A stretch of 64,000 bases of DNA from positions 1,860,001 to 1,924,000 of the forward strand of contig NZ_CP132976.1 in assembly GCF_030864005.1 (NCBI RefSeq), read 5' to 3'. A model generated the notes under the pieces. That model ran no database searches and had not been told where the DNA came from. It saw only the letters and a program-made list of their open reading frames with translations. Shown here piece after piece: positions 28,351 through 50,341 of the stretch; positions within the stretch are counted from its first letter, which is position 1; each line of letters begins with the position of its first letter. The stretch comes from Achromobacter seleniivolatilans (lineage in GTDB: Bacteria > Pseudomonadota > Gammaproteobacteria > Burkholderiales > Burkholderiaceae_B). The translations under genes and the position numbers were made by a program.

Positions 28351-28495
28351 GGATAGGATTCCTTTGCTGTAGCTTGTGGTTGGAGCGAAGCCCAGCACGG
28401 GACCCACATCATGTTTGTCTCGACTTGCTTCGACTCCTAAGCCGGACAAGTTTGAGAAAACTGCCAAGTATTTTGTAACAGCACGCCGTACGCCA

Positions 28496-30158: not shown

Positions 30159-32366
30159 CTAGCCCGCCGCGATCAGCCTGATATCTGCACTGCCATCACG
30201 TTGCAGCTGTTCGACCAGGCCCAGCTCCCAATCCAGATATTCCCTGAAACCCTGATCGCGTGCCGACAGATCGTCAAACAGATATGGGCTGATGCTTTGA
30301 TCGTCATCGCCCGTCAGCACGCCGGCCGAACCCGTGGCCAGGTCCAGGCCCTGCGTCTTCCAGGCGCGAGTGCCGCCCAGCAGGTATTGAACCGCGCGCT
30401 TGCCGCGCCACGCCAACTCTGCCGCCACCACGCTGGCCAGCACGCCATCGGACGACGTCAGCACAATGGCGCGGTGATCGTCTGGCGACAAGAACTCGGC
30501 CAGACGGTCGGGCGCCGAAAAGCGCGCGCCGGGCACGTGACCGCGCTCATAGGCAATACGGGATTCCACGTCAAACACGATGGCTTCGCCTCCATCCAGC
30601 ACGGCGCGCAATGCCTGCGCGTGCACCCCCGCCGCATCCGGGCGATGGCGCAGCACACGGCGCGGTTCAGCGCCACTTTGCAACGCGGCAAGCGCGGGCG
30701 GCTGATAAAGATAGACTTCAACCGCGCCCAACTGCGCGAGCCACGCCCCGGTTGTCAGCGCCCGCACCCCATCCCAATCGGCCAGCACCACGCGAGCGCG
30801 GCGCGTCGCCAGGTATTCATCCGTGGCTTGCACCAGCTGGCCGCCGGGCGCCCAACGCCAGCCTTCAAGGTGGCCGGTTTCATATTCTTCACGCGTGCGC
30901 ACATCAAACTTGTAGAGCGTGCGCGTGCCCTGCTCTGCCTCAAACGACTGAAGCGTCGCCGCGTCGATATAGCCAATACCCGCGCGCTGCGCAACATCGC
31001 GGGCCTGCTCGCGCGCGGCGGAAAGCGAGGCCGCGCCGGGTTCAGGCAACGCGGCATGGCGGCCATAGGCCAACTCACGGCCCGACAGCAACCATTCCAT
31101 GGTGCCGTTACGCAGCGAGGCGACGCGGTTTGGGATACCGGCATCAATCAGTGTCTGCGCGCCGACAATGCTGCGCGTGCGGCCGGCACAGTTCACCACC
31201 ACAAAGGTCTTGGGATCGGGCGCCAGTTCGCGGATGCGATAGACCAGTTCCGCACCGGGCAGGCTGTGCGAAAAAGGCAGAGTGAAATTGTGGAATTCCT
31301 CTGGCGTGCGGCTGTCCACCACCACGATGTCGTCGCCGCGAGCGACGCGCTCGTGCAGTTCATCCACATCGATCCAGGGCGTGTGTTTTTCGTGCTCGAT
31401 GACTTCGCCAAACGCTTTGCTGGGCACATTGGTGCCGGAGAACAGCTCGCGGCCCTCTCGTTCCCAGCCATCGGTGCCGCCCGCCAGCACCGAGATATCC
31501 GTCCAGCCCAGACGCGTCAGCTTGGCGGCAGCCTGATGCGCCTGAGTTTCGTCGTCGTCCACCAGCACAATACGGGTGTTGCGGCGTGGCACCAGGCGGT
31601 CCGCCAGCAGTTCCAGCCGCCACAGCGGCGCGGGCACCGCGTTCAACAAATGACGGCGGGCATAGCGGCCGGCCTCGCGCACATCCAGCACGGCGACCTC
31701 TGCATCACCACGCAACTCGTCCTGCAATTGCTGCGCGGTCAAGCGCGCATGATAGATCGCGGCAGGCGGAGAAAACGTGCGGTACGTGCCGCCTGCCGTG
31801 CTTTCAAACACCACGCGGCCATGCAGACGGTCCAGCGCCAAACCATAAAAGTGCAGATGCGCGCCAGGCTGATCGCCCACCAGCTCGATGGTGTGGACGT
31901 CGCCCGGGCCTAACACAATTGAGTTGCCCGGCCCCACGTCCACGCGGCGAACGTGGGTCAGTACATCGCGCAGCGGATCGGCGCTGGATGCGCGCGTATA
32001 GACTTCGTTGCGTTCGTCACCCGCCACACCCGCAATGATGGCCCAGGTGGTGTGGTCATGCGGCGGTTGCGCCTTGCCCGGTTCGCCCAAGGACAGATAC
32101 AGCGCATAACCGCCATCGATGTCTTCGGCCAGCCGGTAGATGGAAGTGGGACGGCCCGGCACCACGGAAAAGGCGTCTGCGGGAAAAAGCTCGCGGCGCT
32201 GGCCCAACCCCTCCAGCAGTTGTGCCACCTGTTGCAATTGTTCCAGGGTGGCGTGCGCGGCGTCAGGCGCCAGCTGACGGGCCTGTGCAATGAAAGCGCT
32301 GACCGCTTCAGCGCGTTCGGTGTGTGTAGAGCGGGCCGTAGCGGCCGGCTGGGTAGATGTGCTCAT
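30159..32366 (-). CDS. Cysteine-dioxygenase-like cupin fused to four rhodanese domains
   Basis: This 735-residue cytosolic protein has five domains. Residues 1-200 are a thiol-dioxygenase-type cupin with metal ligands His103, His105 (PPHDHTTW) and His172 (HLHFYG). Rhodanese-like domains follow at about 208-310, 328-432, 465-565 and 585-675. Only the second keeps the catalytic Cys (Cys393, VVNCAGRTRS). The first has Asp near residue 270 (LVDDDE), the third Asp530 (LADWDG) and the fourth Ser638 (LTSSDG). The cupin is related to the stand-alone cupin at 35093-35722. The enzyme could oxidise a thiol or persulfide and pass sulfane sulfur through the single active rhodanese; this resembles ETHE1-rhodanese persulfide fusions in logic, not in fold. 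It follows the CysB-like gene by 107 bp. Confidence 0.85.
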   Translation of the reverse strand: MSTSTQPAATARSTHTERAEAVSAFIAQARQLAPDAAHATLEQLQQVAQLLEGLGQRRELFPADAFSVVPGRPTSIYRLAEDIDGGYALYLSLGEPGKAQPPHDHTTWAIIAGVAGDERNEVYTRASSADPLRDVLTHVRRVDVGPGNSIVLGPGDVHTIELVGDQPGAHLHFYGLALDRLHGRVVFESTAGGTYRTFSPPAAIYHARLTAQQLQDELRGDAEVAVLDVREAGRYARRHLLNAVPAPLWRLELLADRLVPRRNTRIVLVDDDETQAHQAAAKLTRLGWTDISVLAGGTDGWEREGRELFSGTNVPSKAFGEVIEHEKHTPWIDVDELHERVARGDDIVVVDSRTPEEFHNFTLPFSHSLPGAELVYRIRELAPDPKTFVVVNCAGRTRSIVGAQTLIDAGIPNRVASLRNGTMEWLLSGRELAYGRHAALPEPGAASLSAAREQARDVAQRAGIGYIDAATLQSFEAEQGTRTLYKFDVRTREEYETGHLEGWRWAPGGQLVQATDEYLATRRARVVLADWDGVRALTTGAWLAQLGAVEVYLYQPPALAALQSGAEPRRVLRHRPDAAGVHAQALRAVLDGGEAIVFDVESRIAYERGHVPGARFSAPDRLAEFLSPDDHRAIVLTSSDGVLASVVAAELAWRGKRAVQYLLGGTRAWKTQGLDLATGSAGVLTGDDDQSISPYLFDDLSARDQGFREYLDWELGLVEQLQRDGSADIRLIAAG

Positions 32367-32472
32367 AAGATGACCCGGACTTCCTAGGATGAAGAGAAGG
32401 TCAGCCTACGTCCGCCTGCCCCAACCGGACAACGTAGAAATGTGACTATGGATATGCGGCGCCTACCAAACG

Positions 32473-33402
32473 CTAGGCTTCGCCCTTGAGCTCGCGTTCT
32501 ACGACTTCACGCGTCAGGGTCGGCACAAACATCTCGACAAAATGGAAAGCGTAGCCTCGCAGCCACGCGCCGCGCCGGATGGCCAACCGCGTCAGGTTGA
32601 TCTCGAAAAGATGGCGCGCATCAATGGCGCACAGGCGCGTATCGCGCTCTGCATCCCAGGCCACCGCCGCCACAATACCCACGCCCAATTCCAATTCCAC
32701 ATAGGTCTTGATCACGTCCGCATCCATGGCGGTCATGACGATATCGGGCGTAATGCCGGCACGTGCGAAGGCTTCGTCGATGTGCGCCCGCCCTGTGTAG
32801 CCGTGCCCATACGTAATGATGGGGTAGCGCGACAACTGCGACAGGCTGACGCCGTCATGCTGACGTTCAAGAGGATGACCGCGAGGCACGATGATGCTGT
32901 GGCTCCAGCGGTAGCACGGCAGATTCACCAGGCCCGGGTAGTCCGCCACGGCTTCGGTCGCAACGCCGATATCGGCCTCGCCTTCCAGCAGCATTTCCGA
33001 TACCTGCTTGGGCGAACCTTGGTGCAGATGCAACACCACATCGGGATAGCGCTGACGAAACTCCTTGATGACGGGCGGCAGCGCGTAGCGCGCTTGCGAG
33101 TGCGTGGCCGCAATCGACAGCACTCCGCTGCGGCTATCGGCGTATTCCGCGCCCGCATGACGAATGTTGTCGGCGCATTGCAGAATCTGTTCAACCAAGG
33201 GCAGAATCAGTTCGCCCGGCGGCGTCAGGCCGATCAGGCGTTTGCCCGAGCGCACGAATATATCTACCCCAACCTCTTCTTCAAGTTCGCGGATCTGGCG
33301 GCTGACGCCGGGCTGCGACGTGTGCAGGCTTTCGGACACATCGGTCAGGTTGAAATCCTGGCGCACGGCTTCACGCACGGATCTGAGTTGTTGGAAGTTC
33401 AT
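32473..33402 (-). CDS. CysB/Cbl-like LysR regulator of sulfur genes
   Basis: This 309-residue protein has an opening nearly diagnostic for CysB/Cbl: MNFQQLRSVREAVRQDFNLT and LHTSQPGVSRQIRELEEE. The effector domain includes IAATHSQARYALPPVIKEF, the CysB inducer-binding Thr/Gln segment. Such regulators activate assimilation of sulfate, sulfonates or thiols during sulfur limitation, with O-acetylserine, N-acetylserine or APS as ligands. It lies within the sulfur gene block, 7 bp after the VOC gene and upstream of the cupin-rhodanese gene. It is the probable local regulator of the block; whether it is the genome's main CysB cannot be decided here. Confidence 0.9.
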   Translation of the reverse strand: MNFQQLRSVREAVRQDFNLTDVSESLHTSQPGVSRQIRELEEEVGVDIFVRSGKRLIGLTPPGELILPLVEQILQCADNIRHAGAEYADSRSGVLSIAATHSQARYALPPVIKEFRQRYPDVVLHLHQGSPKQVSEMLLEGEADIGVATEAVADYPGLVNLPCYRWSHSIIVPRGHPLERQHDGVSLSQLSRYPIITYGHGYTGRAHIDEAFARAGITPDIVMTAMDADVIKTYVELELGVGIVAAVAWDAERDTRLCAIDARHLFEINLTRLAIRRGAWLRGYAFHFVEMFVPTLTREVVERELKGEA

Positions 33403-33408
33403 CGCGCC

Positions 33409-33759
33409 TCAGCCCAGTATGGCCAATTGATTGCCAGAGGGATCTTTCACATACATAACGCGCGGTACGGCGTCGGGTAAGGAACAGACCGGGTGATGGC
33501 CGGCCAGACGCAAGCGCGCCAGGATCTCGTCATAAGCGTGGGTTTTGATGGCCAGATAATCGGGTTTGACGGCCCGGCTGACTTCGGTCACGGGCGACAG
33601 CGACAAGGTGGCGCCACCCAGCGCATAAAGCAGGCGCTGGTCATCGGCGCTGTCCATTTCGTCCAGACCGATGACGCGCTGATAGAACTCGCGGACGGCA
33701 TCGAGCCGGCGCGACAAGAAGGGAAGCTGTACCGAGTCAATCGAGAGAATAGAAGACAT
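33409..33759 (-). CDS. VOC (glyoxalase/dioxygenase-fold) protein
   Basis: This 116-residue protein starts at MSSILSIDSVQLPFLSRRLD; the frame is open 17 codons upstream. Two beta-alpha-beta-beta-beta units are indicated by AVREFYQRVIGLDEM, YALGGATLSLSP and MYVKDPSGNQLAIL, the last carrying the typical metal-ligand strand. Members include glyoxalases, ring-cleavage enzymes and binding proteins; the role here is unknown. It lies between the C-S lyase gene (122-bp gap) and the CysB-like gene (6-bp gap), so it shares the sulfur transcript or begins a new one. Confidence 0.8.
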   Translation of the reverse strand: MSSILSIDSVQLPFLSRRLDAVREFYQRVIGLDEMDSADDQRLLYALGGATLSLSPVTEVSRAVKPDYLAIKTHAYDEILARLRLAGHHPVCSLPDAVPRVMYVKDPSGNQLAILG

Positions 33760-33881
33760 GTCCTGCTTCCAGCCGTGAAACAGGACAAATTCTAGTACCC
33801 GAAGGTACAACCGGACAAAGAGGTTGTAATTGCTTCTACATAGCCAGAAACCCTAAAGAAATTGGCTTATTTGCATATACC

Positions 33882-35096
33882 TCAAGCGCTGCGGCGCAAT
33901 GCGTCGCGTGTCGCGGTGAAGGCGCGTTCCAGGTCATCGATCAAATCCAGGGGGCTTTCCAACCCGATATGCAGCCGCACGACGGACTGTTTGTTTGTGC
34001 CATCTTGCCAATGGCTGTGCTCGGCCAGCCGCGCGGGCGCGGCTTCCAGCGCCAGGCTTTCATAGCCGCCCCACGATGCGCCTATCGAGAAGTAGCGCAG
34101 CGCATCGATGAAGCGCGCGGCGGCGGCAGCGTCAGGATGCTGGAACGCAAAAGACACCAGGCCGCTTGCGCCGCTGAAGTCGCGCTGCCACAACGCATGG
34201 CCGGGATCTTGTTCCAGCGCCGGGTAAAAGACACGCGCCACATCGTCATGCCGCGACAAATACTGCGCCACGGCCAACGCATTTTCTTGATGACGCGCCA
34301 AGCGCACGTCCAGCGTGCGCAGCCCGCGCAGCGTGAGATAGGCATCATCCGCGCCGACCGACAAGCCTAGCGCGTCGTACGTGACGCCAATCTTCTTCGC
34401 CAATTCAGCGCTGTCCACGGTGACGACGCCCATCATCACGTCGGAGTGCCCCGCCAGATACTTGGTCGCGGCCTGGATCGAAATATGCGCGCCCAGCGCC
34501 AACGGCTGGTAATACAGGCCGCCGCTCCAGGTGTTGTCAGCCGCCACCAGCACGCCGTGGCGGCGCGCGACTGCAGCAAGCGCGGGCAGGTCCAGCACTT
34601 CGTACAGCAAGGAGCTGGGCGATTCCAGATAGAGCAGCCGCGTGTTCGGGCGGATCAACGGTTCCAGATCGTCTTTCGTGGCTGAAAAGTATTCAACCTC
34701 GATGCCGTAGCGCTGTAGCAGCGCCTGATCCACCCGGCGCACCGGGGAATACACGCTGTCTGCCACCAGCGCGTGCTCGCCCGGCGCCAAGGTGGCCAGC
34801 AGCACCAGCACAATCGCCGACAGGCCCGACGGCGCCAGCACTGTGCGATAGCCGCCTTCCAGCGATGCCACGGTTTCTTCCAACGCCTGATGCGTATCCA
34901 GGCCATGACGGCCATACGTCGCCACCCTGCCCCCGGCCGCACGCTGCTGATTCAGCGCGGCGTGAGCCGCCGTATCGGCAAAGCGCACCGTGCTGGTACG
35001 CACGACAGGCACGTTGACGGGGCCGGACCCGTCTTTCAGCTCGGGTGATCCGGCATGCACCAGCCGGGTTTGAACACGGGCGAGGTCGAGGCTCAT
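33882..35096 (-). CDS. metC: Cystathionine beta-lyase-type PLP C-S lyase
   Basis: This 404-residue Cys/Met-metabolism PLP enzyme has the PLP Lys in AATKYLAGHSDVMMG and the phosphate/ring contacts in YGRHGLDTHQALEE, LAPSGLSAIVLV and ADNTWSGGLY. In this family ATKY-x-x-GHSD marks MetC-type beta-lyases, which release a thiol, pyruvate and ammonia from cystathionine or other S-substituted cysteines. It overlaps the cupin gene by 4 bp and lies in an operon with an amino-acid ABC importer, so the natural substrate may be an imported thioether amino acid instead of cystathionine. The symbol denotes the family. Confidence 0.85.
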   Translation of the reverse strand: MSLDLARVQTRLVHAGSPELKDGSGPVNVPVVRTSTVRFADTAAHAALNQQRAAGGRVATYGRHGLDTHQALEETVASLEGGYRTVLAPSGLSAIVLVLLATLAPGEHALVADSVYSPVRRVDQALLQRYGIEVEYFSATKDDLEPLIRPNTRLLYLESPSSLLYEVLDLPALAAVARRHGVLVAADNTWSGGLYYQPLALGAHISIQAATKYLAGHSDVMMGVVTVDSAELAKKIGVTYDALGLSVGADDAYLTLRGLRTLDVRLARHQENALAVAQYLSRHDDVARVFYPALEQDPGHALWQRDFSGASGLVSFAFQHPDAAAAARFIDALRYFSIGASWGGYESLALEAAPARLAEHSHWQDGTNKQSVVRLHIGLESPLDLIDDLERAFTATRDALRRSA

Positions 35097-35722
35097 GCGC
35101 GCACCTCTTGGCCGGGCTTCATTTGCGTGGTGTTGTAGTTCAGGATCTGTCCCGTCTCCAAGTCAATGCCTATGCGGCCCGACAGCGTTTCCAGAGGCTG
35201 GCCGTAAAGGTGAAAGTGCAAGGTCGGCGTGTCGCCCGTCACGTGAATGCTGTGGATGTCGTCGGGCAGAAACGATACCGACTGCCCAGGTTGCACAACG
35301 ACTTCTCGCACCTGTTCAAGCGTTGCGCGACCGGCTTGTGAGCCATCGTCGCTGCGCCGGTAGACGCGATTCAATTCTTGGCCGGACAGCGCCACGATGC
35401 AGGCCCATGTCGTGTGGTTGTGCGGCAGCGTGGTCTTGCCCGGGTTGATGGAATTCAGATAAAGCGCGGGGACGCCAGGCGCTGCCTCGGGATTGAGACG
35501 GTAGCGCGTGGATGCGCCCACGCCTTGCCCGGCCTCGGGCGGCGGAAATTCCGTCACGGGAAACAGTTCCTGCCGCTGCGCCAGCTGTTCCAGGCGGGTC
35601 GTGACTGCGGCAAGCTGCTCGCGCGTCACGGGTTCTGCTGCCTTCAGCAAGCGTTGGATATCGGACAGGGCCGCCTGCACATGCTGGCGGCGTTCGGCGG
35701 TAATCGCGGATTCAGTGCTCAT
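35093..35722 (-). CDS. Cysteine-dioxygenase-like cupin
   Basis: This 209-residue cytosolic cupin starts at MSTESAITAERRQ. Fe(II) ligands are predicted as His101 and His103 (LPHNHTTW) and His171 (LHFHLYG), the 3-His arrangement of thiol dioxygenases, which oxidise cysteine or 3-mercaptopropionate to the sulfinate. It is a paralogue of the N-terminal domain of the cupin-rhodanese protein at 30159-32366; both share PH-x-HTTW and the H-x-Y-G strand. Tight coupling to the C-S lyase suggests it oxidises the thiol product. The substrate is inferred. Confidence 0.82.
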   Translation of the reverse strand: MSTESAITAERRQHVQAALSDIQRLLKAAEPVTREQLAAVTTRLEQLAQRQELFPVTEFPPPEAGQGVGASTRYRLNPEAAPGVPALYLNSINPGKTTLPHNHTTWACIVALSGQELNRVYRRSDDGSQAGRATLEQVREVVVQPGQSVSFLPDDIHSIHVTGDTPTLHFHLYGQPLETLSGRIGIDLETGQILNYNTTQMKPGQEVRA

Positions 35723-35740
35723 GGATAACTCCAAAGGGAT

Positions 35741-36631
35741 TCACACTGCCAGGCGCAGCGGATCGAAAGTCAGATAGGTTTCTATGGGATCAGGCGCCGT
35801 CTTGCGCGCCGCCGATGCGCCGGATGAACGTTGCAGAAAGGCCCGGGTCCGTTCACTGTCAGGCGATCCAAAAATTCGCGCAGGCGGACCGGATTCAACA
35901 ATGTGACCGGCTTCCGTGAAGTACACGGTGTCACTGACCTCTTCGGCAAAGCGCATTTCATGCGTAACCAGCATGCAGGTCAGGCCGTCCTGCACCAGGT
36001 CCCGGATCACGGTCAGGACCTCTCCCACCATCTCGGGGTCCAGCGCGGAAGTCACTTCATCAAACAGAATCAGTTCCGGCTGCATGGCAAGCGCGCGCGC
36101 AATCGCCACGCGCTGCTGCTGCCCGCCCGACAATTCGCCGGGGTATGCGCCTTCCTTGTGCTCCATGCGCACCTTGGCCAACAGTTCACGCGCCCGCGCT
36201 TCGGCCTTGGCACGCGGCTGCCCACCCACTTTCACGGGCGAGATCACCAGGTTTTCAAGCACGCTCAAATGCGGAAAAAGGTTGTATTGCTGGAATACGA
36301 ACCCCACGCGCTTGCGCAGCGCAATGAAGTCCGCCTCCGTCTTCAATCCGTCTACCTGCACCCCGCTGACTTCAATCGTGCCGCGCTGCGGCCGCAACAG
36401 GCCCGTGATGCAGCGCAGGATGGTGGATTTGCCAGAACCCGAAGGGCCGATGATGGATACCGCCTGGCCCTGTTTGACCTCGACGTCGATGCCCTTTAGC
36501 ACCTCGGTCTGGCCAAACGCCAGGTGGACGTCGCGCAAGCTGACCAGCGGCGAACTATCGGAAGCCGCAGCCGAGGCCTGCGCGCTTGCTTGGAATGAGG
36601 CGGCGCGCGCCTCGAAATCAATGATGCTCAT
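35741..36631 (-). CDS. Amino-acid-type ABC transporter ATPase
   Basis: This 296-residue polar-amino-acid ABC ATPase has Walker A GPSGSGKST, Q-loop FVFQQYNLFPHLSV, signature LSGGQQQRVAIARAL, Walker B LILFDEVTSALDPE and switch His in VTHEM. Relatives are GlnQ/HisP/TcyN. About 30 extra N-terminal residues (ARAASFQASAQASAAASD) precede the core. The ATG at 36631 overlaps the permease stop by 14 bp; the upstream in-frame extension lies inside the permease gene and is rejected. Confidence 0.93.
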   Translation of the reverse strand: MSIIDFEARAASFQASAQASAAASDSSPLVSLRDVHLAFGQTEVLKGIDVEVKQGQAVSIIGPSGSGKSTILRCITGLLRPQRGTIEVSGVQVDGLKTEADFIALRKRVGFVFQQYNLFPHLSVLENLVISPVKVGGQPRAKAEARARELLAKVRMEHKEGAYPGELSGGQQQRVAIARALAMQPELILFDEVTSALDPEMVGEVLTVIRDLVQDGLTCMLVTHEMRFAEEVSDTVYFTEAGHIVESGPPARIFGSPDSERTRAFLQRSSGASAARKTAPDPIETYLTFDPLRLAV

Positions 36632-37445
36632 GGCGTCGTTCCAGATACCGCGTCCAACGCGCGATGGGATAGCAATAGGCGAAAAACAGCGCCAATAGCG
36701 TGAAATAGACAAGAATGGTGAAGTCGCTGCGGGCGACAGTGTTACTGGCCACGGTGGCGGTATCCACCAGATCGTGCACGCCCACCAGCGATGCCAGCGA
36801 CGTGCTCATCGTGATGCTGGCGTACAGATTCATCCACGACGGCAACATGCGGCGCACACACTGCGGCAGCACGATCATGCGAAAGATCTGCGTGCGCCTG
36901 AAAGCGAGCGACTGCGCGGCTTCCCATTGCGCGCTGGGTATCGACTGGATCGCCCCGCGAAAGATCTCGGCCACGTTGGCGCTGGCGGGCAGCCCCAGAC
37001 CGATCACCACTTTGATCCAATCCGGAAACGGAAGATTCCAACCGCCCAGATTCAATTCAAAGGGGAAGACATACGTTGTGAAATAGACCAGCACCAGAAT
37101 GGGCGCATTGCGAAACAGCAGCACGTAGGCGCGCGTCAGGCGGCGCAATACACGTGACGGCGACAGCGACAGCGCTCCCACCACCAGCCCCGCAATCGTG
37201 CCCAGCGCCATCGCCAACACACTGATCTGGATGTTCACCCCCAGCCCGCGCAACAAAGCCGGCGACCAGTGCCACAACGCCTGGACGGCAGCCGGCGTGG
37301 TGCCGGTAACCGCCCACCCCACGCCCAGCGCCACCAATGCCAGCAGCAGCACAAACCAGGGATCACGCAGCACGGCGGACAGCAATGCGGGCAGCGTCGC
37401 CTGCGGCCGGGCTCGGCCGGCGTTCAAGACCAGATCATTGGCCAT
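36618..37445 (-). CDS. Amino-acid-type ABC permease, second subunit
   Basis: This 275-residue inner-membrane permease of the HisM/GlnP class has about five helices. The coupling EAA loop reads QWEAAQSLAFRRTQIFRMIVLPQ. The motif LLFRNAPILVLVYF is typical of the family. With the neighbouring permease it would form a heterodimer. It overlaps the upstream permease gene by 11 bp and the ATPase gene by 14 bp. Confidence 0.92.
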   Translation of the reverse strand: MANDLVLNAGRARPQATLPALLSAVLRDPWFVLLLALVALGVGWAVTGTTPAAVQALWHWSPALLRGLGVNIQISVLAMALGTIAGLVVGALSLSPSRVLRRLTRAYVLLFRNAPILVLVYFTTYVFPFELNLGGWNLPFPDWIKVVIGLGLPASANVAEIFRGAIQSIPSAQWEAAQSLAFRRTQIFRMIVLPQCVRRMLPSWMNLYASITMSTSLASLVGVHDLVDTATVASNTVARSDFTILVYFTLLALFFAYCYPIARWTRYLERRHEHH

Positions 37446-38172
37446 AGCCGGGCATCCTCAAACGTTCTTCCAGCCACCGACCGCCCACGCTGACCAGCCA
37501 GGTCAGCAGGCCGAAATACAGCAGGATCAACAGCAGCAGTTCCAGCACGTTGTCGCGATGCGACCAGATCATGATGGATTCATAAGTGACATCACCGACG
37601 GCAATGGCCGAGGCGATCGCCGTCATCTTCACCAGATCCACCAGGTTGTTGACCAGCGCGGGTAAAGCAAAGCGCACGGCCAACGGCAGTTGCACCTGCG
37701 TCAGAATCTGCCGCCGCGAAAATGCCAGCGAACGGGCGGCTTCCATCGTGACCGTTGGCACGGCCTCGATGCCAGCGCGCAGGGCCTCGGCATGAAACAC
37801 GCCTTTGTGCAGCGCCACCACGATCACCACCCACGCAAAGGGCGTGATCGGATTGCCGCCGCCCAGCTTTTGCGTGATCAGCATGTTCAACACCAGAAAT
37901 GCGCAGTACAGCTGCACCAGCGTCGGCGTATTGCGGGTGACTTCCACAAAGGCTTGCAGCGGCCGCGCCAGCCACGGGCGGCCGCTGGTGAGCGCAGCGG
38001 CGATCAGCACGCCGAACACCAGGCTGACCGGAATCGTCCACGCGCACAGCTGCAACGTCACCAGCAGGCCGTGTCCGAACGCGGACAATTCGCCCGGGTC
38101 CATGACAAAGCTGTAGTTAAGGCCCAGGGGTTTGAAGAACGCTACCCAGGCCTGCAGAACCGAATCCATCAT
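37435..38172 (-). CDS. Amino-acid-type ABC permease, first subunit
   Basis: This 245-residue permease of the same class has FVEVTRNTPTLVQLYCAFLV, the family signature of the first helices, and the EAA loop MEAARSLAFSRRQILTQVQLPL. It pairs with the permease encoded next to it and the ATPase at 35741. Its start overlaps the aminotransferase stop by 4 bp, so transport and metabolism genes are translationally coupled. Confidence 0.92.
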   Translation of the reverse strand: MMDSVLQAWVAFFKPLGLNYSFVMDPGELSAFGHGLLVTLQLCAWTIPVSLVFGVLIAAALTSGRPWLARPLQAFVEVTRNTPTLVQLYCAFLVLNMLITQKLGGGNPITPFAWVVIVVALHKGVFHAEALRAGIEAVPTVTMEAARSLAFSRRQILTQVQLPLAVRFALPALVNNLVDLVKMTAIASAIAVGDVTYESIMIWSHRDNVLELLLLILLYFGLLTWLVSVGGRWLEERLRMPGYGQ

Positions 38173-39416
38173 GCGGCGGCCTCCAGCGCCGTGACCGCGG
38201 ATAGCGCCGCCACGGCGCGATGGATGCGTTCAATGGCCGCGTCGATGTTCGTATCGGACGCCGCAAAAGACAGCCGCAGATACGGCGACAAACCATAGGC
38301 CGCGCCACGCACGATTGCGACGCCCTCGGACTCCAACAACCAGTCGGCCACATCGCCATCATGTTCAATGGGCCTGCCATCGGGGCGCAAGGCGCCAATC
38401 AATCCGCCAACTCCGATCCACGCAAAGAACGAACCTTGCGGCGCGTGCACCTGCAAACCCGGCACGCTGCCCAGCCCGTCCTCCACGCGTTGCGCGCGTC
38501 GCGCATACGCTTGGCGGGCGGTCTCGACGAACCCGTCCGCCACGCCCTGCAGGGCGGCCAGCGCGGCCGCCTGGCCCAAGGAACTTGGACCCGACGAGAC
38601 CTGTGACTGCACGGCTTCCAGCACGTGAATCAAGGGTTTGGGCCCGGTACCCCAGCCGACGCGCCACCCGGTCATCGCATAGGCTTTGGATACCCCATTG
38701 ACGATCAACGTGCGATCGATCAGGTCTGGCGCCACGCGCAGCAGATGCGCGGGCGGCTGGCCAAACCAGATTTCTTCATACATTTCGTCCCACAGCACCA
38801 GCACCTGCGGCGCGTCGCGCAGCACCTGCGCCAAAGCCGCAAGCTCTTGCGCCGTATAGACCGCGCCGGTTGGATTGCCCGGCGAATTCAGGATCAGCCA
38901 CTTGGTGCGCGGCGTGATGGCATCGCGCAAACCCTGCGGCGTGAGCTTGAAACCGTCTTCGGCCCGCGTGTGCGCTATGACGGGCACGCCGCCATTGATG
39001 CGCACAGCATCAGGAAAGGTGGGCCAGTACGGCGCGGGCACGATGACCTCGTCTCCCTCATCCAGGGTTGCATTCAACGCCAGGTAAATGACCTGCTTGC
39101 CGCCATTGGAAATAATGACGTTCGCGCCATCCACGTCCAGCCCATGGCGTTCGCGGTAGCCATCAGCCACTGCGCTACGCAGCGCGGCCGTGCCGGCAGT
39201 GGGCGTATATTTGGTCTTGCCCTGGTCCAGCGCCGAAATCGCAGCAGCCTTGATAGACGCCGGGGTATCGAAATCCGGTTCGCCGGACGTCAGCACAATA
39301 ATGGAACGGCCTGCTGCTGCCAGCTTGGCCGCGCGCGCGCCAGCGGCGGCAATGGGCGACAGCTCGGCGCTACGCGCGCGTCGTGACAGCACGCCAGGGA
39401 ACAAAGAGTCAGTCAT
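38169..39416 (-). CDS. Class I PLP aminotransferase (aspartate-aminotransferase-like)
   Basis: This 415-residue fold-type I aminotransferase has the PLP Lys in NGVSKAYAMTGWRVGWGTG. Other signatures are LTSGEPDFDTP, YTPTAGTAALRSAV, NSPGNPTGAVY and WDEMYEEIWFG. Relatives are AspC/PatA type aminotransferases. Its neighbour on one side oxidises a 2-hydroxy acid to a 2-oxo acid, so the pair could convert an imported hydroxy acid to an amino acid for the C-S lyase, or run in reverse. It overlaps both neighbours by 4 bp. Confidence 0.9.
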   Translation of the reverse strand: MTDSLFPGVLSRRARSAELSPIAAAGARAAKLAAAGRSIIVLTSGEPDFDTPASIKAAAISALDQGKTKYTPTAGTAALRSAVADGYRERHGLDVDGANVIISNGGKQVIYLALNATLDEGDEVIVPAPYWPTFPDAVRINGGVPVIAHTRAEDGFKLTPQGLRDAITPRTKWLILNSPGNPTGAVYTAQELAALAQVLRDAPQVLVLWDEMYEEIWFGQPPAHLLRVAPDLIDRTLIVNGVSKAYAMTGWRVGWGTGPKPLIHVLEAVQSQVSSGPSSLGQAAALAALQGVADGFVETARQAYARRAQRVEDGLGSVPGLQVHAPQGSFFAWIGVGGLIGALRPDGRPIEHDGDVADWLLESEGVAIVRGAAYGLSPYLRLSFAASDTNIDAAIERIHRAVAALSAVTALEAAA

Positions 39417-40837
39417 GACAATACCTTTCCGGGATTCATCAGGTTCAAAGGGTCTAGCGCCTGCTTGATGCGGCGCATCAGCGCCAGCTCCAACGGGCTC
39501 TTGAAATGGGGCAAGGCATCGCGCTTGACTTGCCCGATGCCGTGTTCGGCGCTGATCGAGCCGCCCTGCGCATGCGCCTGGGCATGCACCACGTCATGGA
39601 TGCGGTCTTCGAGCGCAAACAGATGGCGCACCGCACGAGCCGGGTCGTGCGACACGTTGTAGTGAAGATTGCCGTCGCCCAGATGGCCGAACGCCATCGG
39701 CCGCAGCCCGGGGTCCAGCGCTTGCAAGGCGTCTGCTGTGCGGCGCAGAAACGCTGGCACCCGCGAAATCGGCACGGAGATGTCGTGTTTGACGTTGCCG
39801 CCGTCCCGGGCTTGCGCCACGCCGATGGCTTCATCGCGCAGGCGCCAGAACGCGCCGGACTGTTGCAGGTTGTGCGCGATCACCGCGTCTGCCAACAAGC
39901 CTGATTCCAATGCTTGTTCCGCCAGGCGCAGCAGTGCCGCGCCTGCGCCGTCAGGCGCTTCGGACGACGCTTCCAGCAGCGCGTACCAGGGCTGCGCCAA
40001 GCCGGGCAGCGGCTGTGCTTGTTCCGGCACATGCCGGGCAACCAGTTCCAGCACCGGCTGGCCGATCAGTTCGAAGCCTGTCAACGCAGCGCCCAGGCGC
40101 TGGCGGGCCAAAGACAGAAACGCCAACGCCGCATCGATAGACGGAAAACCGACAAACGCGCTGCCCTGTCCCGCGGGCAAGGGATAGAGCTTGAGTGTGG
40201 CGGCAGTGATAATGCCCAGCGTGCCCTCACTGCCGATATACAGATCCCGCAGCGAATATCCGGTGTTGTCCTTGCGCAAGCCGCGCAAGCCATTCCAGAC
40301 CTCGCCTTCGGCCGTCACCACTTCCAGGCCCAAGGTCAGTTCACGCGTGTTGCCATAGCGCAGCACCTGCGTGCCGCCCGCATTGGTCGACAGATTGCCG
40401 CCGATGGTGCAACTGCCTTCTGAACCCAGGCTGAGCGGAAACAAACGGTTGGCCTGCCGCGCAGCGTCCTGCACAGTGGCCAGCACACAGCCCGCCTGCA
40501 CCGTAATCGTGTCGTTGTCGGTGTCCAGTTCCAGCACCCGGTTCAAGCGGCCCAACGACAGCAGGACGGCATGGCCGCTCTGGTCCGGCGTCGCGCCGCC
40601 CATCAGCCCGGTATTTCCGCCCTGCGGCACCACTGGCACGCCGGCCGCATGGCACAGCCGCAGCACGGCGGCCACTTCCTGGGCGTCGGCGGGCCGGACC
40701 ACCGCAATCGCTTGTCCGTGCAGGCGGTGGCGGTGATCGGTCAGATACGGCGCGGCATCCGCGCCCGTCCAGACCCAGTCCTGCCCCAGTCTGGCGCGCA
40801 AGGCGCCCAACAACGCGTCTGCGGTGGCCGTCGTCAT
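39413..40837 (-). CDS. FAD-linked D-2-hydroxyacid dehydrogenase (GlcD/D2HGDH-like)
   Basis: This 474-residue vanillyl-alcohol-oxidase-type flavoprotein has its FAD site in VVPQGGNTGLMGGATP, LSLGSEGSCTIGGNLSTNAGG and YIGSEGTLGIITAATLKLYP. The C-terminal cap includes GHLGDGNLHYNVS (metal-binding His) and ISAEHGIGQVKRDAL. Such enzymes oxidise D-2-hydroxy acids to 2-oxo acids. Placement between the aminotransferase and the binding protein, with ATGA overlaps on both sides, makes it part of the sulfur operon. D-lactate, D-2-hydroxyglutarate or a sulfur-bearing hydroxy acid are possible substrates. Confidence 0.9.
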   Translation of the reverse strand: MTTATADALLGALRARLGQDWVWTGADAAPYLTDHRHRLHGQAIAVVRPADAQEVAAVLRLCHAAGVPVVPQGGNTGLMGGATPDQSGHAVLLSLGRLNRVLELDTDNDTITVQAGCVLATVQDAARQANRLFPLSLGSEGSCTIGGNLSTNAGGTQVLRYGNTRELTLGLEVVTAEGEVWNGLRGLRKDNTGYSLRDLYIGSEGTLGIITAATLKLYPLPAGQGSAFVGFPSIDAALAFLSLARQRLGAALTGFELIGQPVLELVARHVPEQAQPLPGLAQPWYALLEASSEAPDGAGAALLRLAEQALESGLLADAVIAHNLQQSGAFWRLRDEAIGVAQARDGGNVKHDISVPISRVPAFLRRTADALQALDPGLRPMAFGHLGDGNLHYNVSHDPARAVRHLFALEDRIHDVVHAQAHAQGGSISAEHGIGQVKRDALPHFKSPLELALMRRIKQALDPLNLMNPGKVLS

Positions 40838-41697
40838 GGCTTGGCCTGCGCCTCGGGCGGCGCGCTCTCAAACTTGCCGGTCTGAGCGTTGGCACTGGCT
40901 TCTTTCAGGTAGTCGGCCGGCACGCCAAAACGTTCTGCCTGCTTCACCAGCAAGCCCGACTTGTGCCAGTCACGGATCACGCCGTCGACAAAAGCGCGCG
41001 TGTCGGCTTCATTGCGGCGCGTCCAGATCACCGTGGGCGACGGAATCAGCTGGGCTGAGGTTGCCAGTTCAAAGTCTGCCCATTGCTGACCATTGGGGCC
41101 ATGCAGCGTTTCGTACAGCGCCGGTTGAATATGGACCGACGCATCGCAGCTACCGCCCTTTAGCGCCAGCAGCGATTCGGGAATGTTGCGCAGGCCCTTG
41201 ACGACCGCGCCATAGGTGTCCTGCAAGGGCTTGGCGAAGTTGCTGCCTTGCGACACGCACGCCACCTTGCCCTTCAGATCTTCCCAGCGCTTGATCCCGC
41301 TTTTCTTGGACACCATGGCAGCTCCGCCCACCAGGTTGTACGGGGTAGGCGCGTAGCTGAGAATCTCACTGCGTTCTTGCGTCCATTGAATATTGGCGAT
41401 CAGCAGGTCCACCTTGCCGGCCTGCAGGAACTGCACACGCGTGGACGCCGTGACCGGCACCGTTTCCAGTGTCACGCCCAGGCGTCGCGCTATGTCCTCA
41501 CCCAACTCGGTCTGAAAGCCGCCCACCTTGCCGGTGGCCGGGTCCAGCAGGCCAAACGGCGGGCTGGCCCCGTCCACGCCAATGGCGATTTTTCCGCGTT
41601 GCTTGATCTTGTCCAGCGTCGCATCTGCCTGCGCCACGCCGCAAGCCAGGCTTGCCAGCGCGACGGCAGCAGCGATTTTCATCTTTGATACTTTCAT
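40834..41697 (-). CDS. Periplasmic amino-acid-type solute-binding protein 1
   Basis: This 287-residue family-3 solute-binding protein has a signal peptide (KIAAAVALASLACGVAQAD). Signatures are IKQRGKIAIGVDGASPPFG, GFQTELGEDIARRLGV and VDLLIANIQWTQERSEIL, where the usual Thr-rich contact is replaced by IQWT. It feeds the ABC importer encoded downstream. It is paralogous to the binding protein at 41729-42565, 31 bp upstream, with shared ADATLDKIK-x-RG and NP/TQERAEIL-like segments. Confidence 0.92.
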   Translation of the reverse strand: MKVSKMKIAAAVALASLACGVAQADATLDKIKQRGKIAIGVDGASPPFGLLDPATGKVGGFQTELGEDIARRLGVTLETVPVTASTRVQFLQAGKVDLLIANIQWTQERSEILSYAPTPYNLVGGAAMVSKKSGIKRWEDLKGKVACVSQGSNFAKPLQDTYGAVVKGLRNIPESLLALKGGSCDASVHIQPALYETLHGPNGQQWADFELATSAQLIPSPTVIWTRRNEADTRAFVDGVIRDWHKSGLLVKQAERFGVPADYLKEASANAQTGKFESAPPEAQAKP

Positions 41698-41728
41698 CTT
41701 GAATATCCGTTCTGTTCCGGGCTGATGC

Positions 41729-42565
41729 TCAGCTGCCCTGCTTGTATTTCGCGTTCAATTCCTGCAACAGCGGCTGCGGCGGCTCGATACCCAAGCGCTT
41801 TTCCGTTGCGATCAGCCAGCCCTTGCGGTGCCAGTCCTGCACCACCTTGTCTACGGCGGCAATCGTGTCGGCCTCGCCCTTGCGCGTCCAGACGACGGAA
41901 TTGGCGGGCAGCACTTCGGTCGCTATAGGCGCGTGGTAGTCAGCCCATTCCGGATTGGTGCGCAGCAAGGGGTGGATCAAAGTGGAGTCGTGCACTGCCG
42001 CCACGCATTGGCCGCCGCGCAGCGCCAACAGCGAGTCCGACGAGCTCTTGTAGCCCTTGACCACGGCGCCATAATCAGCCGACAACGGCCGCGCAAAGCT
42101 GCTGCCCTGCGATACGCACACGGGCTTGCCGCGCAGGTCTTCCCATTTGGTGATGCCGCTGGTTTTCAAGGTGGCAGCCGCGCCGCCCACCCGGAAGAAC
42201 GGCGTGGGCGCATAACCCAGGATTTCGGCGCGTTCAGGATTCAGTTCCATGGATGCGATCAGCAGATCCACCTTGCCGGAGATCAGGAATTGCGTGCGCG
42301 TGGCGGTTTGCACCTGCACCAGCTCCGCCTTTACACCCAGGCCCTTGGCCAGTTCCCTGGCCAGTTCGGGGTTCCAGCCCACCAGTTGCTGCGTGGCAGG
42401 GTCCAGCGAACCGAACACGCCGCCGTTGGCCAACACGCCAATGGTGACGGTGCCGCGTTCCTTGATTTTGTCCAGCGTGGCATCGGCATGCGCCATGCCG
42501 CCTGCGAACGCCAGCGCCAGCGTCATTGCGGTACGGGCCGCGCCCAGAGTCTTGCGAGTTGCCAT
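41729..42565 (-). CDS. Periplasmic amino-acid-type solute-binding protein 2
   Basis: This 278-residue family-3 binding protein begins MATRKTLGAARTAMTLALAF, with a signal peptide ending M-A-H-A. The frame is open upstream, but the ATG at 42565 places the signal peptide correctly. Mature features are IKERGTVTIGVLANGGVFG, NPELARELAKGLGV and VDLLIASMELNPERAEIL. It is a paralogue of the next gene, so one importer may serve two related ligands. It is the first gene of the run; a 240-bp spacer with a terminator separates it from the Bug receptor gene upstream. Confidence 0.9.
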   Translation of the reverse strand: MATRKTLGAARTAMTLALAFAGGMAHADATLDKIKERGTVTIGVLANGGVFGSLDPATQQLVGWNPELARELAKGLGVKAELVQVQTATRTQFLISGKVDLLIASMELNPERAEILGYAPTPFFRVGGAAATLKTSGITKWEDLRGKPVCVSQGSSFARPLSADYGAVVKGYKSSSDSLLALRGGQCVAAVHDSTLIHPLLRTNPEWADYHAPIATEVLPANSVVWTRKGEADTIAAVDKVVQDWHRKGWLIATEKRLGIEPPQPLLQELNAKYKQGS

Positions 42566-42757
42566 GTTGTTATCGAGTCGAGTGCATTGAACGGAGGTCC
42601 ATGCTGCGTGCCGCAAGCTCGCATGACAAAGAAGACTTTCAGATATGAATATGCGGGGCGCGGCGCTCCCTGGGGAAACCGTCGATGCGCACATAACCAT
42701 ATGACGCAGAAGGGGTTTCGCTGCCGTGATTCGGCTGAAAACAGGCGGCTGAAATAG

Positions 42758-42782
42758 AAAAAGGCGCGGTCTGCTCCGCGCC
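42758..42782 (-). terminator. Rho-independent terminator after Bug receptor gene
   Basis: On the minus strand GGCGCGG and CCGCGCC pair around a 6-nt loop (42763-42782) and are followed by TTTTT (complement of 42758-42762). It closes the TauD-Bug transcript, so the binding-protein gene at 42565 should have its own promoter in 42566-42757. Confidence 0.8.
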
Positions 42783-42805
42783 TATTCTGTGGTTTTTCTA
42801 CCGCC

Positions 42806-43828
42806 CTACTTCAGCTTCACATCTGCCGATGCAATCACGCGCCGATAGGTCGCAATATCGTCGCGCACCGTCTGGTCCACGGCTTCAGGCGCCGTAGCGG
42901 CGATCGTGAATCCCAGGTTCTCCAGCAGCGCAGCGGTCTCGGGTTCGCGCAGCACGGCCACCACATCCCGATTGATCCGGTCGACGATCACGCGCGGCGT
43001 CGACGCGGGCACCGAAAAGCCCTGCCAGCTTTCGACCACATAGTCAGCCAGCCCGGATTCCTGAATCGTTGGCACATCAGGCAGTGCCTTGGAGCGATAC
43101 GGCGTGGTGACCGCCAGCGCCACCAGCTTGCCGTTGCGCACGTTTTCGGTCGCTGCGGCCAGCGTGATCAGCATGGCGTCCACGTGGCCGCCCAAGACGT
43201 CCAGCGTGGCCGGGCCGCCGCCAGGGTATGGAATCTGATTGGTTTTCGCGCCAATGCGCTCGTTCAGCAGCTCCACCGCCAGATGCTGCAAACTGCCTGT
43301 GCCGCCTGGCAATGCCAGCGAGATCTCGCCAGGACGCTGCCTGACAAGCGCCACGAACTCCTGGAAGGTCTTGATGCCCAGGCCCGGCCGCACCACCAGC
43401 AATTGCGGGTTGACGACGGCCTTGGTCACGCCTTGCAGGTCTTTGACCGGGTCGTAAGGCAACTTGCCCGGTTGCAGGGCGTTGAGCGATAACGCATCGC
43501 CTCCCAACAACAAGGTGTAGCCGTCACCGCGCGCATGGGCGACCGCGGCATTGCCAATGGCGCTGCTGGCGCCTGGCTGGTTTTCAACCACCACGCTTTG
43601 ATGCCACTTCTCACCCAATTTCTGCGCCACGGTACGCGCCAGCTTGTCGGCGCTGCCGCCCGCCGAAACCGGGACGATGATCTTGACCGGCCGATTCGGA
43701 TAGCGGTTGGCATCTACACCGGGCACCGGAGCAGAGCCTGCAAAGTTGCTCAGAAGCCCTGCTCCCAGCACTACGCCCACAATCAGTCCCAGCGCCGCCC
43801 TGATGGCGGATTTACGCTTGATGCTCAT
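42806..43828 (-). CDS. Bug-type tripartite-tricarboxylate solute receptor
   Basis: This 340-residue periplasmic binding protein has an N-terminal hydrophobic signal (AALGLIVGVVLGAGLLSNFA). Bug motifs are YPNRPVKIIVPVSAGGSADK, VVENQPGASSAIG, IPYPGGGPATLDVLGGHVD and KALPDVPTIQESG. Bug proteins capture carboxylates or amides for TctAB-type carriers or act as sensors. No TctA/TctB genes are nearby, so it is an orphan receptor. It overlaps the TauD-like dioxygenase by 4 bp, which suggests it binds the dioxygenase substrate, perhaps a sulfonate or carboxylate. Confidence 0.92.
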   Translation of the reverse strand: MSIKRKSAIRAALGLIVGVVLGAGLLSNFAGSAPVPGVDANRYPNRPVKIIVPVSAGGSADKLARTVAQKLGEKWHQSVVVENQPGASSAIGNAAVAHARGDGYTLLLGGDALSLNALQPGKLPYDPVKDLQGVTKAVVNPQLLVVRPGLGIKTFQEFVALVRQRPGEISLALPGGTGSLQHLAVELLNERIGAKTNQIPYPGGGPATLDVLGGHVDAMLITLAAATENVRNGKLVALAVTTPYRSKALPDVPTIQESGLADYVVESWQGFSVPASTPRVIVDRINRDVVAVLREPETAALLENLGFTIAATAPEAVDQTVRDDIATYRRVIASADVKLK

Positions 43829-44754
43829 GCCGCGGCTCCGGTATCCACGCCAAAGGCGCTGAACGGCTTGCCGAGCACCGCGTTGGAATGCCTGCCTTCA
43901 ACACCCACCGGCACATCGCCTTCAAGCGTGATGCGATACAGCACGCGTTCAGTATCCAGATAGGCAAAATCGCCCGGCCCCTGGTGCGCGGTTGCACGGT
44001 TATCCCAGAACGCTATGCTGCCCGGCTGCCAGCGGAAGCGCACGGTGTATTCGGGCCGGGTAATTTCTTCGAAGAACAAATTCAGCAGATGACGGCTTTC
44101 TTCCTCGTTCACATCTTTGATGCGGCGCGTGAAACCCGGGTTGACGAACAACGCGCGCTCACCCGTTTCAGGCAAAACGCGCACGACGGGATGCTCGGAC
44201 ACCAAGGGGCTTGCCTGAACGCGCTGCGCATAGACGGTCTGGTTTTCAAAGTCGCCGTTGTAGCCCCCGAACTGGTGTCGCGCCCACAGGCCGTCCGCCA
44301 GCGCGCGCAACGCCGGCGACAAGTGTTCGTAGGCTGCCACCAGATTGGTGAATATCGTGTCGCCGCCATAGGCGGGCACTTGCAGACCCGCACGGAGAAT
44401 GGACCCCGCCGGCGGGTTGACCACGCCCGTCACGTCGGTATGCCAGCGTTCACCGCGGCGGCCGGTCGTGGACTTGGATGAAATGGTGCGGATTTGCGGA
44501 TAGCCTTCAGGCGGATTCGCATCGTAGGGGTGCGCGGACGTTGGCCGGCCGAAGTACTGTGCAAAAGCCAGATGCTGCGCGTGGTCGATGTGCTGATCGC
44601 GGAAGAACACCACCTTCCAGCGCAATAGCGCGGCCTTGATCTGATCAACCTCGTCATCCGTCAAGGGCTGCGTCAAATCCACCCCGTGGATCTCCGCGCC
44701 AGTGAAGACGGAAAGCGGCCGGACGTCCAGCCGCGTGCGTTCTAAAGTGGTCAT
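43825..44754 (-). CDS. TauD/TfdA-family Fe(II)/2-oxoglutarate dioxygenase
   Basis: This 309-residue cytosolic enzyme has iron ligands His105 and Asp107 in ERWHTDVTG and a distal His in NRATAHQGPGDF. The 2-oxoglutarate-binding Arg is in RVLYRITLEG. The family releases sulfite from taurine and other sulfonates, or cleaves aryloxyalkanoates and sulfate esters. Length and the WHTDV motif are typical. It starts the TauD-Bug transcript and is adjacent to a cysteine-related cluster, so a sulfur-scavenging role is likely. The exact substrate is open. Confidence 0.88.
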   Translation of the reverse strand: MTTLERTRLDVRPLSVFTGAEIHGVDLTQPLTDDEVDQIKAALLRWKVVFFRDQHIDHAQHLAFAQYFGRPTSAHPYDANPPEGYPQIRTISSKSTTGRRGERWHTDVTGVVNPPAGSILRAGLQVPAYGGDTIFTNLVAAYEHLSPALRALADGLWARHQFGGYNGDFENQTVYAQRVQASPLVSEHPVVRVLPETGERALFVNPGFTRRIKDVNEEESRHLLNLFFEEITRPEYTVRFRWQPGSIAFWDNRATAHQGPGDFAYLDTERVLYRITLEGDVPVGVEGRHSNAVLGKPFSAFGVDTGAAA

Positions 44755-45775: not shown

Positions 45776-45790
45776 CGTCTATTGCCCCAA

Positions 45791-46438: not shown

Positions 46439-46499
46439 TGCAGGTTCCTTTTTTGTATCCATGCCGAACATGGTAGAAGCCACGCAATGAATTGTTGAA

Positions 46500-50251: not shown

Positions 50252-50341
50252 GCTGGGGCTCCTGGCGGCGGCTGGCAAATGGGTGGCAGCCGCAAGATGA
50301 CAACGATGATGGCGGATGACTATAGGCGCGCACCCTGTTTG

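Follow-up and report, generated by a model that had tools for sequence, protein, structure and literature searches.

What does an operon import when it joins amino-acid-type uptake proteins to a hydroxyacid dehydrogenase, an aminotransferase, a carbon-sulfur lyase and thiol-dioxygenase-like cupins, and what becomes of the sulfur? The question is posed by positions 30159-42565 of the window, a 64,000-nucleotide stretch of Achromobacter seleniivolatilans contig NZ_CP132976.1, in which twelve genes lie in the same direction on the minus strand. An earlier note, made from the sequence alone, had reported about twelve minus-strand genes of these kinds, most of them overlapping by 4-14 bp. All twelve are present, and the description of their packing holds narrowly, with overlaps at six of the eleven junctions (4, 4, 4, 11, 14 and 4 bases) and gaps of 31, 18, 122, 6 and 106 bases at the other five, the 122-base gap preceding the gene for a small VOC-like protein and the 106-base gap the last gene, which encodes a cupin fused to rhodanese stretches. 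Our analysis leads us to favor, at slightly less than even confidence, a role for the operon and this fusion gene as a sulfur-scavenging regulon that would take up and desulfurate acidic cysteine S-conjugates and their 2-hydroxy (3-thiolactate) analogues, with sulfite as the end product. From first gene to last, the operon reads:

41729..42565, minus strand: SBP1, a family-3 solute-binding protein (SBP_bac_3, 2.1e-16)
40834..41697, minus strand: SBP2, a second family-3 binding protein (SBP_bac_3, 5.3e-22) and a paralogue of SBP1 at ~50% identity
39413..40837, minus strand: D2HDH, a flavin adenine dinucleotide (FAD) D-2-hydroxyacid dehydrogenase of the D-2-hydroxyglutarate dehydrogenase type (FAD-oxidase_C PF02913 / FAD_binding_4 PF01565)
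38169..39416, minus strand: AT, a class I aminotransferase (Aminotran_1_2; closest solved chains 6F77, aspartate aminotransferase A, and 6F35, aspartate aminotransferase B)
37435..38172, minus strand: ATP-binding cassette (ABC) permease 1, polar amino acid type (BPD_transp_1; HEQRo_perm_3TM above cut-off)
36618..37445, minus strand: ABC permease 2, polar amino acid type (BPD_transp_1; HEQRo_perm_3TM above cut-off)
35741..36631, minus strand: ABC ATPase (ABC_tran; top model L-cystine TcyN, under its equivalog cut-off)
35093..35722, minus strand: Cup, a thiol dioxygenase of the superfamily of cysteine dioxygenase (CDO) and mercaptosuccinate dioxygenase (MSDO), in a group apart from MSDO (8VNI, 5.5e-46)
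33882..35096, minus strand: MetC, a pyridoxal-phosphate C-S beta-lyase of the cystathionine beta-lyase type (Cys_Met_Meta_PP, TIGR01324)
33409..33759, minus strand: small VOC-like protein (PF00903, 20.1 bits, below the cut-off of 20.6)
32473..33402, minus strand: LysR, a regulator of the CysB family (PRK12684, 454.8 against a cut-off of 402)
30159..32366, minus strand: RhodCup, a thiol-dioxygenase cupin domain fused to four Rhodanese stretches

Profiles and solved relatives bear out the family labels given in the earlier note, apart from the VOC assignment, which is weak because its score falls just under the cut-off. Comparison of gene order across genomes, which that note had proposed, shows that the order and content of the operon recur in other Achromobacter and are rearranged in other Burkholderiales, so that the arrangement is not a product of chance. 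In loci from Variovorax, Acidovorax, Paracidovorax, Delftia and Cupriavidus, the genes run mostly on the strand complementary to that of RhodCup and are contained in the 20 kb fetched, and RhodCup adjoins a MetC relative of 44-45% identity in two Stella genomes (Alphaproteobacteria) and on one further alphaproteobacterial contig from a metagenome-assembled genome.

The manner in which gene content varies among these loci suggests how the enzymes might be connected. Among 78 tabulated loci, with the window itself not counted, 44 carry both SBP1 and permease 1, and all 44 have MetC. AT is found in 30 of them; D2HDH occurs in 10 of these 30 and in none of the 14 loci that lack AT (Fisher 0.018), and SBP2 in 26 of the 30 and again in none of the 14 (Fisher 2.7e-8), both values being uncorrected for relatedness. 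Cup is present in 31 of the 44, both with and without AT, a figure that includes one locus whose cupin has the MSDO residue pattern (L056), and the VOC-like gene is restricted to the Achromobacter loci of the table. The 44 exclude loci truncated where a contig or the 10 kb flank ends, among them two that have both D2HDH and AT (L038 and L104), and the Achromobacter loci L073, L075, L076, L078-L094 and L100 were left out of the table as probable repeats. Such nesting is what one would predict if every additional gene extended a linear route in the upstream direction, from hydroxy acid to oxo acid to amino acid to C-S cleavage, and steps of the series are found side by side within Achromobacter.

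According to the scheme that we favor, SBP1, SBP2 and the ABC transporter would import acidic cysteine S-conjugates, that is, thioethers or disulfides with a carboxylated tail, along with their deaminated 2-hydroxy analogues. D2HDH would oxidize the D-2-hydroxy acid to the 2-oxo acid, AT would aminate the latter to the L-cysteine S-conjugate, and beta-elimination by MetC would release pyruvate, ammonia and a mercapto-carboxylate, the thiol of which Cup would convert to a sulfinate, from which sulfite is then lost. RhodCup, with its predicted iron thiol-dioxygenase domain and single Cys for carrying a persulfide, may then finish or detoxify the sulfur, either by taking a thiol or persulfide to sulfite or by joining sulfite and persulfide into thiosulfate. 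The CysB-type LysR protein, or a relative encoded elsewhere in other genomes, would probably activate both the operon and RhodCup through a shared 28-base element. We infer every reaction, substrate and regulator here, taking the steps from protein family, retained residues and gene content, and we do so from genes, recurrence, nesting, residues and a shared element that are directly observed. The earlier note had proposed a route from hydroxy to oxo to amino acid followed by C-S cleavage and thiol oxidation, and such a route fits the nesting, the kept catalytic residues and the CysB-family regulator.

The expectation of a carboxylated tail comes from the enzymes themselves, as residues that appear to bind a second acid group are kept in D2HDH, AT and Cup. 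When D2HDH is aligned to the D-2-hydroxyglutarate dehydrogenase 6LPN, equivalents of Arg386, Lys401, His434, His441, Asn443, Glu475 and His476 are all retained, and Gly and Phe stand at the positions of Thr390 and Tyr432; residue numbers were placed by hand on the printed 6LPN alignment, and roles were taken from PMC7801405. In the human enzyme, according to that paper, Lys401 and Asn443 bind the distal carboxylate, and these two residues are replaced in most of the lactate and glycolate enzymes compared (PMC7801405). Given the Gly and Phe substitutions in D2HDH, specificity for 2-hydroxyglutarate itself is not implied. AT keeps a Lys aligned with Lys109 of aspartate aminotransferase 1BKG, which we count among the acid-tail residues. 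MetC scores 388.1 with TIGR01324 (cut-off 365.9), PRK beta-lyase models among the matches listed score below their cut-offs, and the alignment to 1CL1 shows the catalytic active-site residues to be kept.

The binding proteins also bear on the ligand. At the position of the Asp that usually anchors the ligand alpha-amino group in family-3 binding proteins, the SBP1-type rows among the matches listed have Val or Ala, as they do in the paralogue alignment, and this suggests that the ligands of SBP1 would not be held through an alpha-amino group. SBP2 has Asp at this position in Achromobacter and Ala in Cupriavidus. In a paralogue control, an open frame was found in five of 15 paralogue loci, and four of those five have the Asp.

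The cupins suggest that the operon probably handles a thiol of its own. No model, Pfam included, scores Cup above its cut-off, and its best solved relative by far is the MSDO structure 8VNI, ahead of cysteine and 3-mercaptopropionate dioxygenases. Both Cup and the N-terminal cupin of RhodCup, which matches 8VNI at 2e-34 and is closer to MSDO than to 3MDO, keep the three His iron ligands and the SHY His and Tyr, with the SHY Ser replaced by His as in 8VNI. All 124 aligned cupin domains, 3MDO included, have the three His ligands, the SHY His and the equivalent of 3MDO Arg168 (role as given in PMC8050391), and the SHY Tyr is kept in 123. Some Cup rows of the 78-locus table (for example L119, L124 and L127) are absent from this alignment, as is a Bordetella locus (L077) that is likewise left out of the fused-loop rows and Cys count given below, and L128 and L141, which are one contig, are counted twice in the cupin and Cys rows. 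The groups part at a position that we take to be that of Arg60 of cysteine dioxygenase, an equivalence that is drawn from a column shared with a Gln of 3MDO and from background on cysteine dioxygenase, the alignment having contained no cysteine dioxygenase sequence. The 11 MSDO-type rows, L056 among them, have Arg at this position, Leu two positions on (Met in one row) and Arg before H-L-H-M-Y. The 33 rows of the operon Cup type keep the Arg60 equivalent, carry Arg at +2 and have Leu in place of the Arg before H-L-H-M-Y, and the fusion cupins have I, V, L or F at the Arg60-equivalent position in all 71 rows, followed at +2 by Arg (65) or His (6). In a tree built from 45 of the 124 rows, every group is set off by a branch, with branch values of 93/95 for Cup, 82/99 for the fusions and 67/74 for MSDO. 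Cup therefore neither groups with 8VNI nor shares its full pocket pattern, for which reason we do not call the operon an MSDO locus, and its own pattern and separate branch suggest that it probably takes a different, still carboxylated, thiol. One Achromobacter locus (L053, G032:C4, ~420131-420511) has split and incomplete matches to the Cup gene, which looks broken there, and the rest of its operon is present.

Beyond its cupin, RhodCup aligns over residues 214-732 with 1YT8 (6e-106), which bears the name thiosulfate sulfurtransferase, and the four Pfam Rhodanese stretches include only one Cys loop, CAGRTR, which holds Cys393, the one Cys among 735 residues. The loop reads CAGRTR in 70 of 71 fused rows and CAGRAR in the other, and 51 of the 71 have exactly one Cys. 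Persulfide dioxygenase-rhodanese fusions exist and likewise place dioxygenase and rhodanese in one chain; their dioxygenase part is of the metallo-beta-lactamase type, whereas that of RhodCup is a cupin. Another parallel is the Pseudomonas arrangement described in PMC12947264, where a 3-mercaptopropionate dioxygenase gene is followed by a thiosulfate sulfurtransferase gene in what is apparently one transcription unit, so that a CDO-family dioxygenase is paired with a sulfurtransferase as in RhodCup, but as two genes rather than one fused chain. Nothing relevant to a cupin-rhodanese fusion, to bacterial mercaptolactate operons or to carboxymethylcysteine use turned up in the open-licence PubMed Central (PMC) literature.

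What appears to hold the parts of the operon together, across several related genera, is a shared DNA element. The upstream regions of SBP1 and RhodCup have in common, across the genus, the pattern GCATATNNATANNNGNANNTCTNCNTTG, which occurs in the window at two places:

42627..42654, minus strand: control element before SBP1, GCATATTCATATCTGAAAGTCTTCTTTG
32430..32457, minus strand: control element before RhodCup, GCATATCCATAGTCACATTTCTACGTTG

These copies have zero and one mismatch, respectively, with 0.01 sites expected in shuffles of the window, and they are also the two best sites genome-wide. Three further sites in the whole genome, each with three mismatches, compare with two matches to a reversed control pattern. 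Among Achromobacter loci, a stricter plain text pattern finds the element in 25 of 27 stretches upstream of SBP1 and 20 of 29 upstream of RhodCup, and a matrix applied to a wider zone finds a site scoring at least 20 before SBP1 in 26 of 26 cases and before RhodCup in 29 of 29, the latter counts not being independent since the matrix was built from those same loci. Because the pattern for the genome itself was derived from its own two best sites, which makes that count circular, we turned to loci outside the genus, where the test is not circular. There the single best site of an Achromobacter-only matrix falls in the promoter zone of RhodCup, SBP1, Cup or a gene for a TctC-type binding protein in 29 of 37 loci longer than 10 kb, whereas 200 column-permuted matrices averaged 1.8 and never exceeded 8, and the reversed matrix gave 2; promoter zones were the 300 bases before a gene, on either strand, and made up 4.1% of the sequence, and L097, L120, L122, L126, L128 and L130 were too short to be included. 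The eight failures are L103, L113, L125, L131-L133, L135 and L136, and in L103 the site lies 257 bases before TctC by its open reading frame start, outside the zone. In the genus genomes that have RhodCup apart from the operon (L038, L051, L052, L067 and L071), its element is kept, and since RhodCup has a copy of its own it probably has its own promoter too. A weak third matrix match in the window (45749-45778, plus strand, scoring 12.6 against 39.4 and 37.6) coincides with the beginning of an alpha/beta-hydrolase gene and precedes a LysR gene at 46492.

The protein that binds the element may well be the LysR of the operon, which does not reach the CysB and Cbl equivalog cut-offs. It is not the sole CysB-type gene of the genome, for a second one, 49% identical, lies at G000:C1:3380336, and no element above threshold was found in its neighborhood. 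Among eight other genomes searched, six have LysR relatives of 56-71% identity and a Bordetella genome has one of 89%. In two Cupriavidus genomes the relatives reach 58 and 56%, barely above the 53 and 55% of the second CysB-type gene.

Much of this equipment has a precedent. In Advenella mimigardefordensis DPN7T, MIM_c37410-37480 encode LysR, Msdo, a cystathionine beta-lyase, a rhodanese-related sulfurtransferase and an amino-acid ABC transporter of the PAAT family. Growth on mercaptosuccinate suffered when either msdo or lysR was deleted, and Msdo has an apparent KM of 0.2 mM; the same report states that msdo of Variovorax paradoxus B4 clusters with rhodanese and cystathionine beta-lyase genes (PMC5373536). 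The core kit of regulator, thiol dioxygenase, cystathionine beta-lyase, rhodanese and amino-acid ABC transporter, all of which the operon has, is thus already tied to the degradation of organic thiols. The Advenella locus differs in having, as far as the available text of that report goes, no named D2HDH or AT and a rhodanese encoded by a separate gene, and the Cup of the operon has a pocket pattern other than that of MSDO. Furthermore, the A. seleniivolatilans genome has a separate MSDO-type locus (L057, G000:C1:4856801-4876800, near C1:4866500), comprising a cupin with the MSDO pattern, relatives of MetC and the rhodanese, and TctC, in which a matrix scan found no element site above the reporting threshold. 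With that locus in the same genome and Cup in a group of its own, the operon is an expanded paralogue of the MSDO locus, probably serving a different thiol. A genus relative (L059, G016) has a back-to-back pair of MSDO-type loci that differ in gene order and in transporter, which is ABC in one and TctC in the other. The earlier note had known of no characterized pathway with this exact set of genes, and the full set of twelve, with D2HDH, AT, a second binding protein and a fused cupin-rhodanese, was indeed not found in the open-licence PMC literature; what the note had missed is that the core is that of a published locus.

How do other explanations fare? The main rival in our analysis is a sulfane pathway for cystine and 3-mercaptolactate, which we regard as possible, if unlikely. 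Cystine or cysteine-mercaptolactate disulfide would be imported and MetC would make a persulfide, D2HDH and AT would link 3-mercaptolactate, 3-mercaptopyruvate and cysteine, and the rhodanese loop would take the sulfane sulfur for the fused cupin to turn into sulfite. RhodCup and MetC are the constant pair, with Cup optional, as this pathway would have it, and the placement of the single Cys of RhodCup in its rhodanese loop and the hydrophobic residue of all 71 fused cupins where MSDO has Arg are in keeping with it. The transporter gives a mixed answer: the ATPase has cystine TcyN as its top model and the cystine model ranks second for the binding proteins, but the cut-offs of the cystine ABC transporter equivalogs are missed throughout (298 against 406 for the ATPase, 82 and 61 against 312 for the binding proteins, 99 and 71 against 300 for the permeases), the permeases score best with ectoine models, and SBP1 lacks the amino-anchoring Asp. 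Retention of the second-acid-group residues in Cup and D2HDH also speaks against a sulfane route, and in the open-licence PMC literature no cupin-type persulfide dioxygenase was found. A distinctly unlikely alternative is that the operon is a second mercaptosuccinate system, with S-(2-succino)cysteine or mercaptosuccinate as substrate and Cup as a diverged MSDO yielding succinate and sulfite. The kinship of its core kit to the published MSDO locus, the proximity of Cup to 8VNI with both Arg equivalents kept and the presence of TctC-type receptors near both kinds of locus would be explained, but L057 already supplies an MSDO-type locus with the MSDO residue pattern and carries no element above the reporting threshold, and Cup sits on a separate branch (93/95) with Arg replaced by Leu and Leu by Arg at two pocket positions. 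Bacteria use S-(2-succino)cysteine, an acidic cysteine S-conjugate, as a sulfur source via 2SL or YxeK, enzymes other than those of the operon, and the accessible part of that report mentions neither dioxygenase, cystathionine nor mercaptosuccin- (PMC9706529). Finally, the CysB-family regulator, the broad families and the variable gene content would be accounted for by a general operon for amino-acid salvage under sulfur starvation without one dedicated substrate, which we consider very unlikely because the genome has just two strong sites for the conserved element and D2HDH is nested on AT, both of which suggest a specific pathway.

Several observations weigh against acidic S-conjugates and their hydroxy analogues as well. 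It is SBP1, and not SBP2, that lacks the amino-anchoring Asp in Achromobacter, the opposite of what would be expected if SBP2 simply delivered the hydroxy acid. The nearest solved relative of D2HDH, 3PM9, also keeps the acid pocket, and the genome encodes another five D2HDH homologues, of which three share 46-62% identity, so that the pocket is a family trait rather than a feature of the operon; there are also seven other MetC homologues. Cup is missing from 13 of the 44 transporter loci, and oxidation by it is therefore dispensable, and the locus counts as a whole are uncorrected for relatedness. As for the control element, L125, L131-L133, L135 and L136, which are mostly alphaproteobacterial or distant, have none in their promoter zones, apart from loci of the genus only L120 and L142 have a LysR of at least 50% identity inside the stretch fetched, and an Acidovorax genome gave only a 46% LysR relative, yet has the element.

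The surroundings of the operon add a probable receptor. Upstream lie:

42762..42783, minus strand: terminator-like hairpin between TctC and SBP1, from a hairpin scan of the region
42806..43828, minus strand: TctC/Bug-type carboxylate-binding protein (PF03401)
43825..44754, minus strand: TauD-family dioxygenase (PF02668), overlapping TctC by 4 bases

The hairpin parts the operon from the TctC gene, and hairpins of this sort often arise by chance here, the region having 24 where 15.2 are expected from shuffles. TctC relatives of 45-60% identity stand beside RhodCup or head the ABC operon in many loci of other genera, and TctC is therefore probably an associated receptor. In V. paradoxus TBEA6, a TctC protein reportedly takes part in thiodipropionate uptake (PMC8102459), so receptors of this type can serve organosulfur acids. 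Membership of TauD in the system is uncertain: it is found in 9 of the 29 genus loci of the table, some of which are incomplete, and in none of the others. A few kb upstream of the operon, 49088-50278 hold a gene for a flavin mononucleotide-dependent alpha-hydroxyacid dehydrogenase. On the downstream side, genes for a FecI-type sigma factor, a FecR regulator and a TonB siderophore receptor (25798-30038) form an ordinary-looking iron-uptake cassette. Other genus loci rule these genes out as part of the unit, with FecI/FecR/TonB relatives of only 26-39% following RhodCup, in L039, L040 and L071. Within the window, no match to an Rfam family scored above the cut-off.

The nested gene content, the shared element, the single-Cys fusion and the second-acid-group residues of three enzymes are new here, and the element and the link to TctC go beyond what the earlier note had described. 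They probably define a co-regulated unit across several Burkholderiales genera by gene content and a conserved DNA element. One unlikely possibility is that three things hold jointly: that the operon serves an unrecognized pathway fed by a naturally occurring pool of 2-hydroxy (3-thiolactate) S-conjugates, that Cup represents, in its branch, a third functional class of small-molecule thiol dioxygenase, and that RhodCup is a cupin-type persulfide dioxygenase, in which the only Cys would take persulfide sulfur and the attached iron cupin would oxidize it to sulfite. Cup and the single-Cys RhodCup are in any event two candidates to widen the small family of characterized thiol dioxygenases. The favored assignment to acidic cysteine S-conjugates may also explain why a C-S lyase and an amino-acid transporter accompany the dioxygenase in mercaptosuccinate loci, since what these loci naturally degrade may be a cysteine S-conjugate rather than the free thiol.

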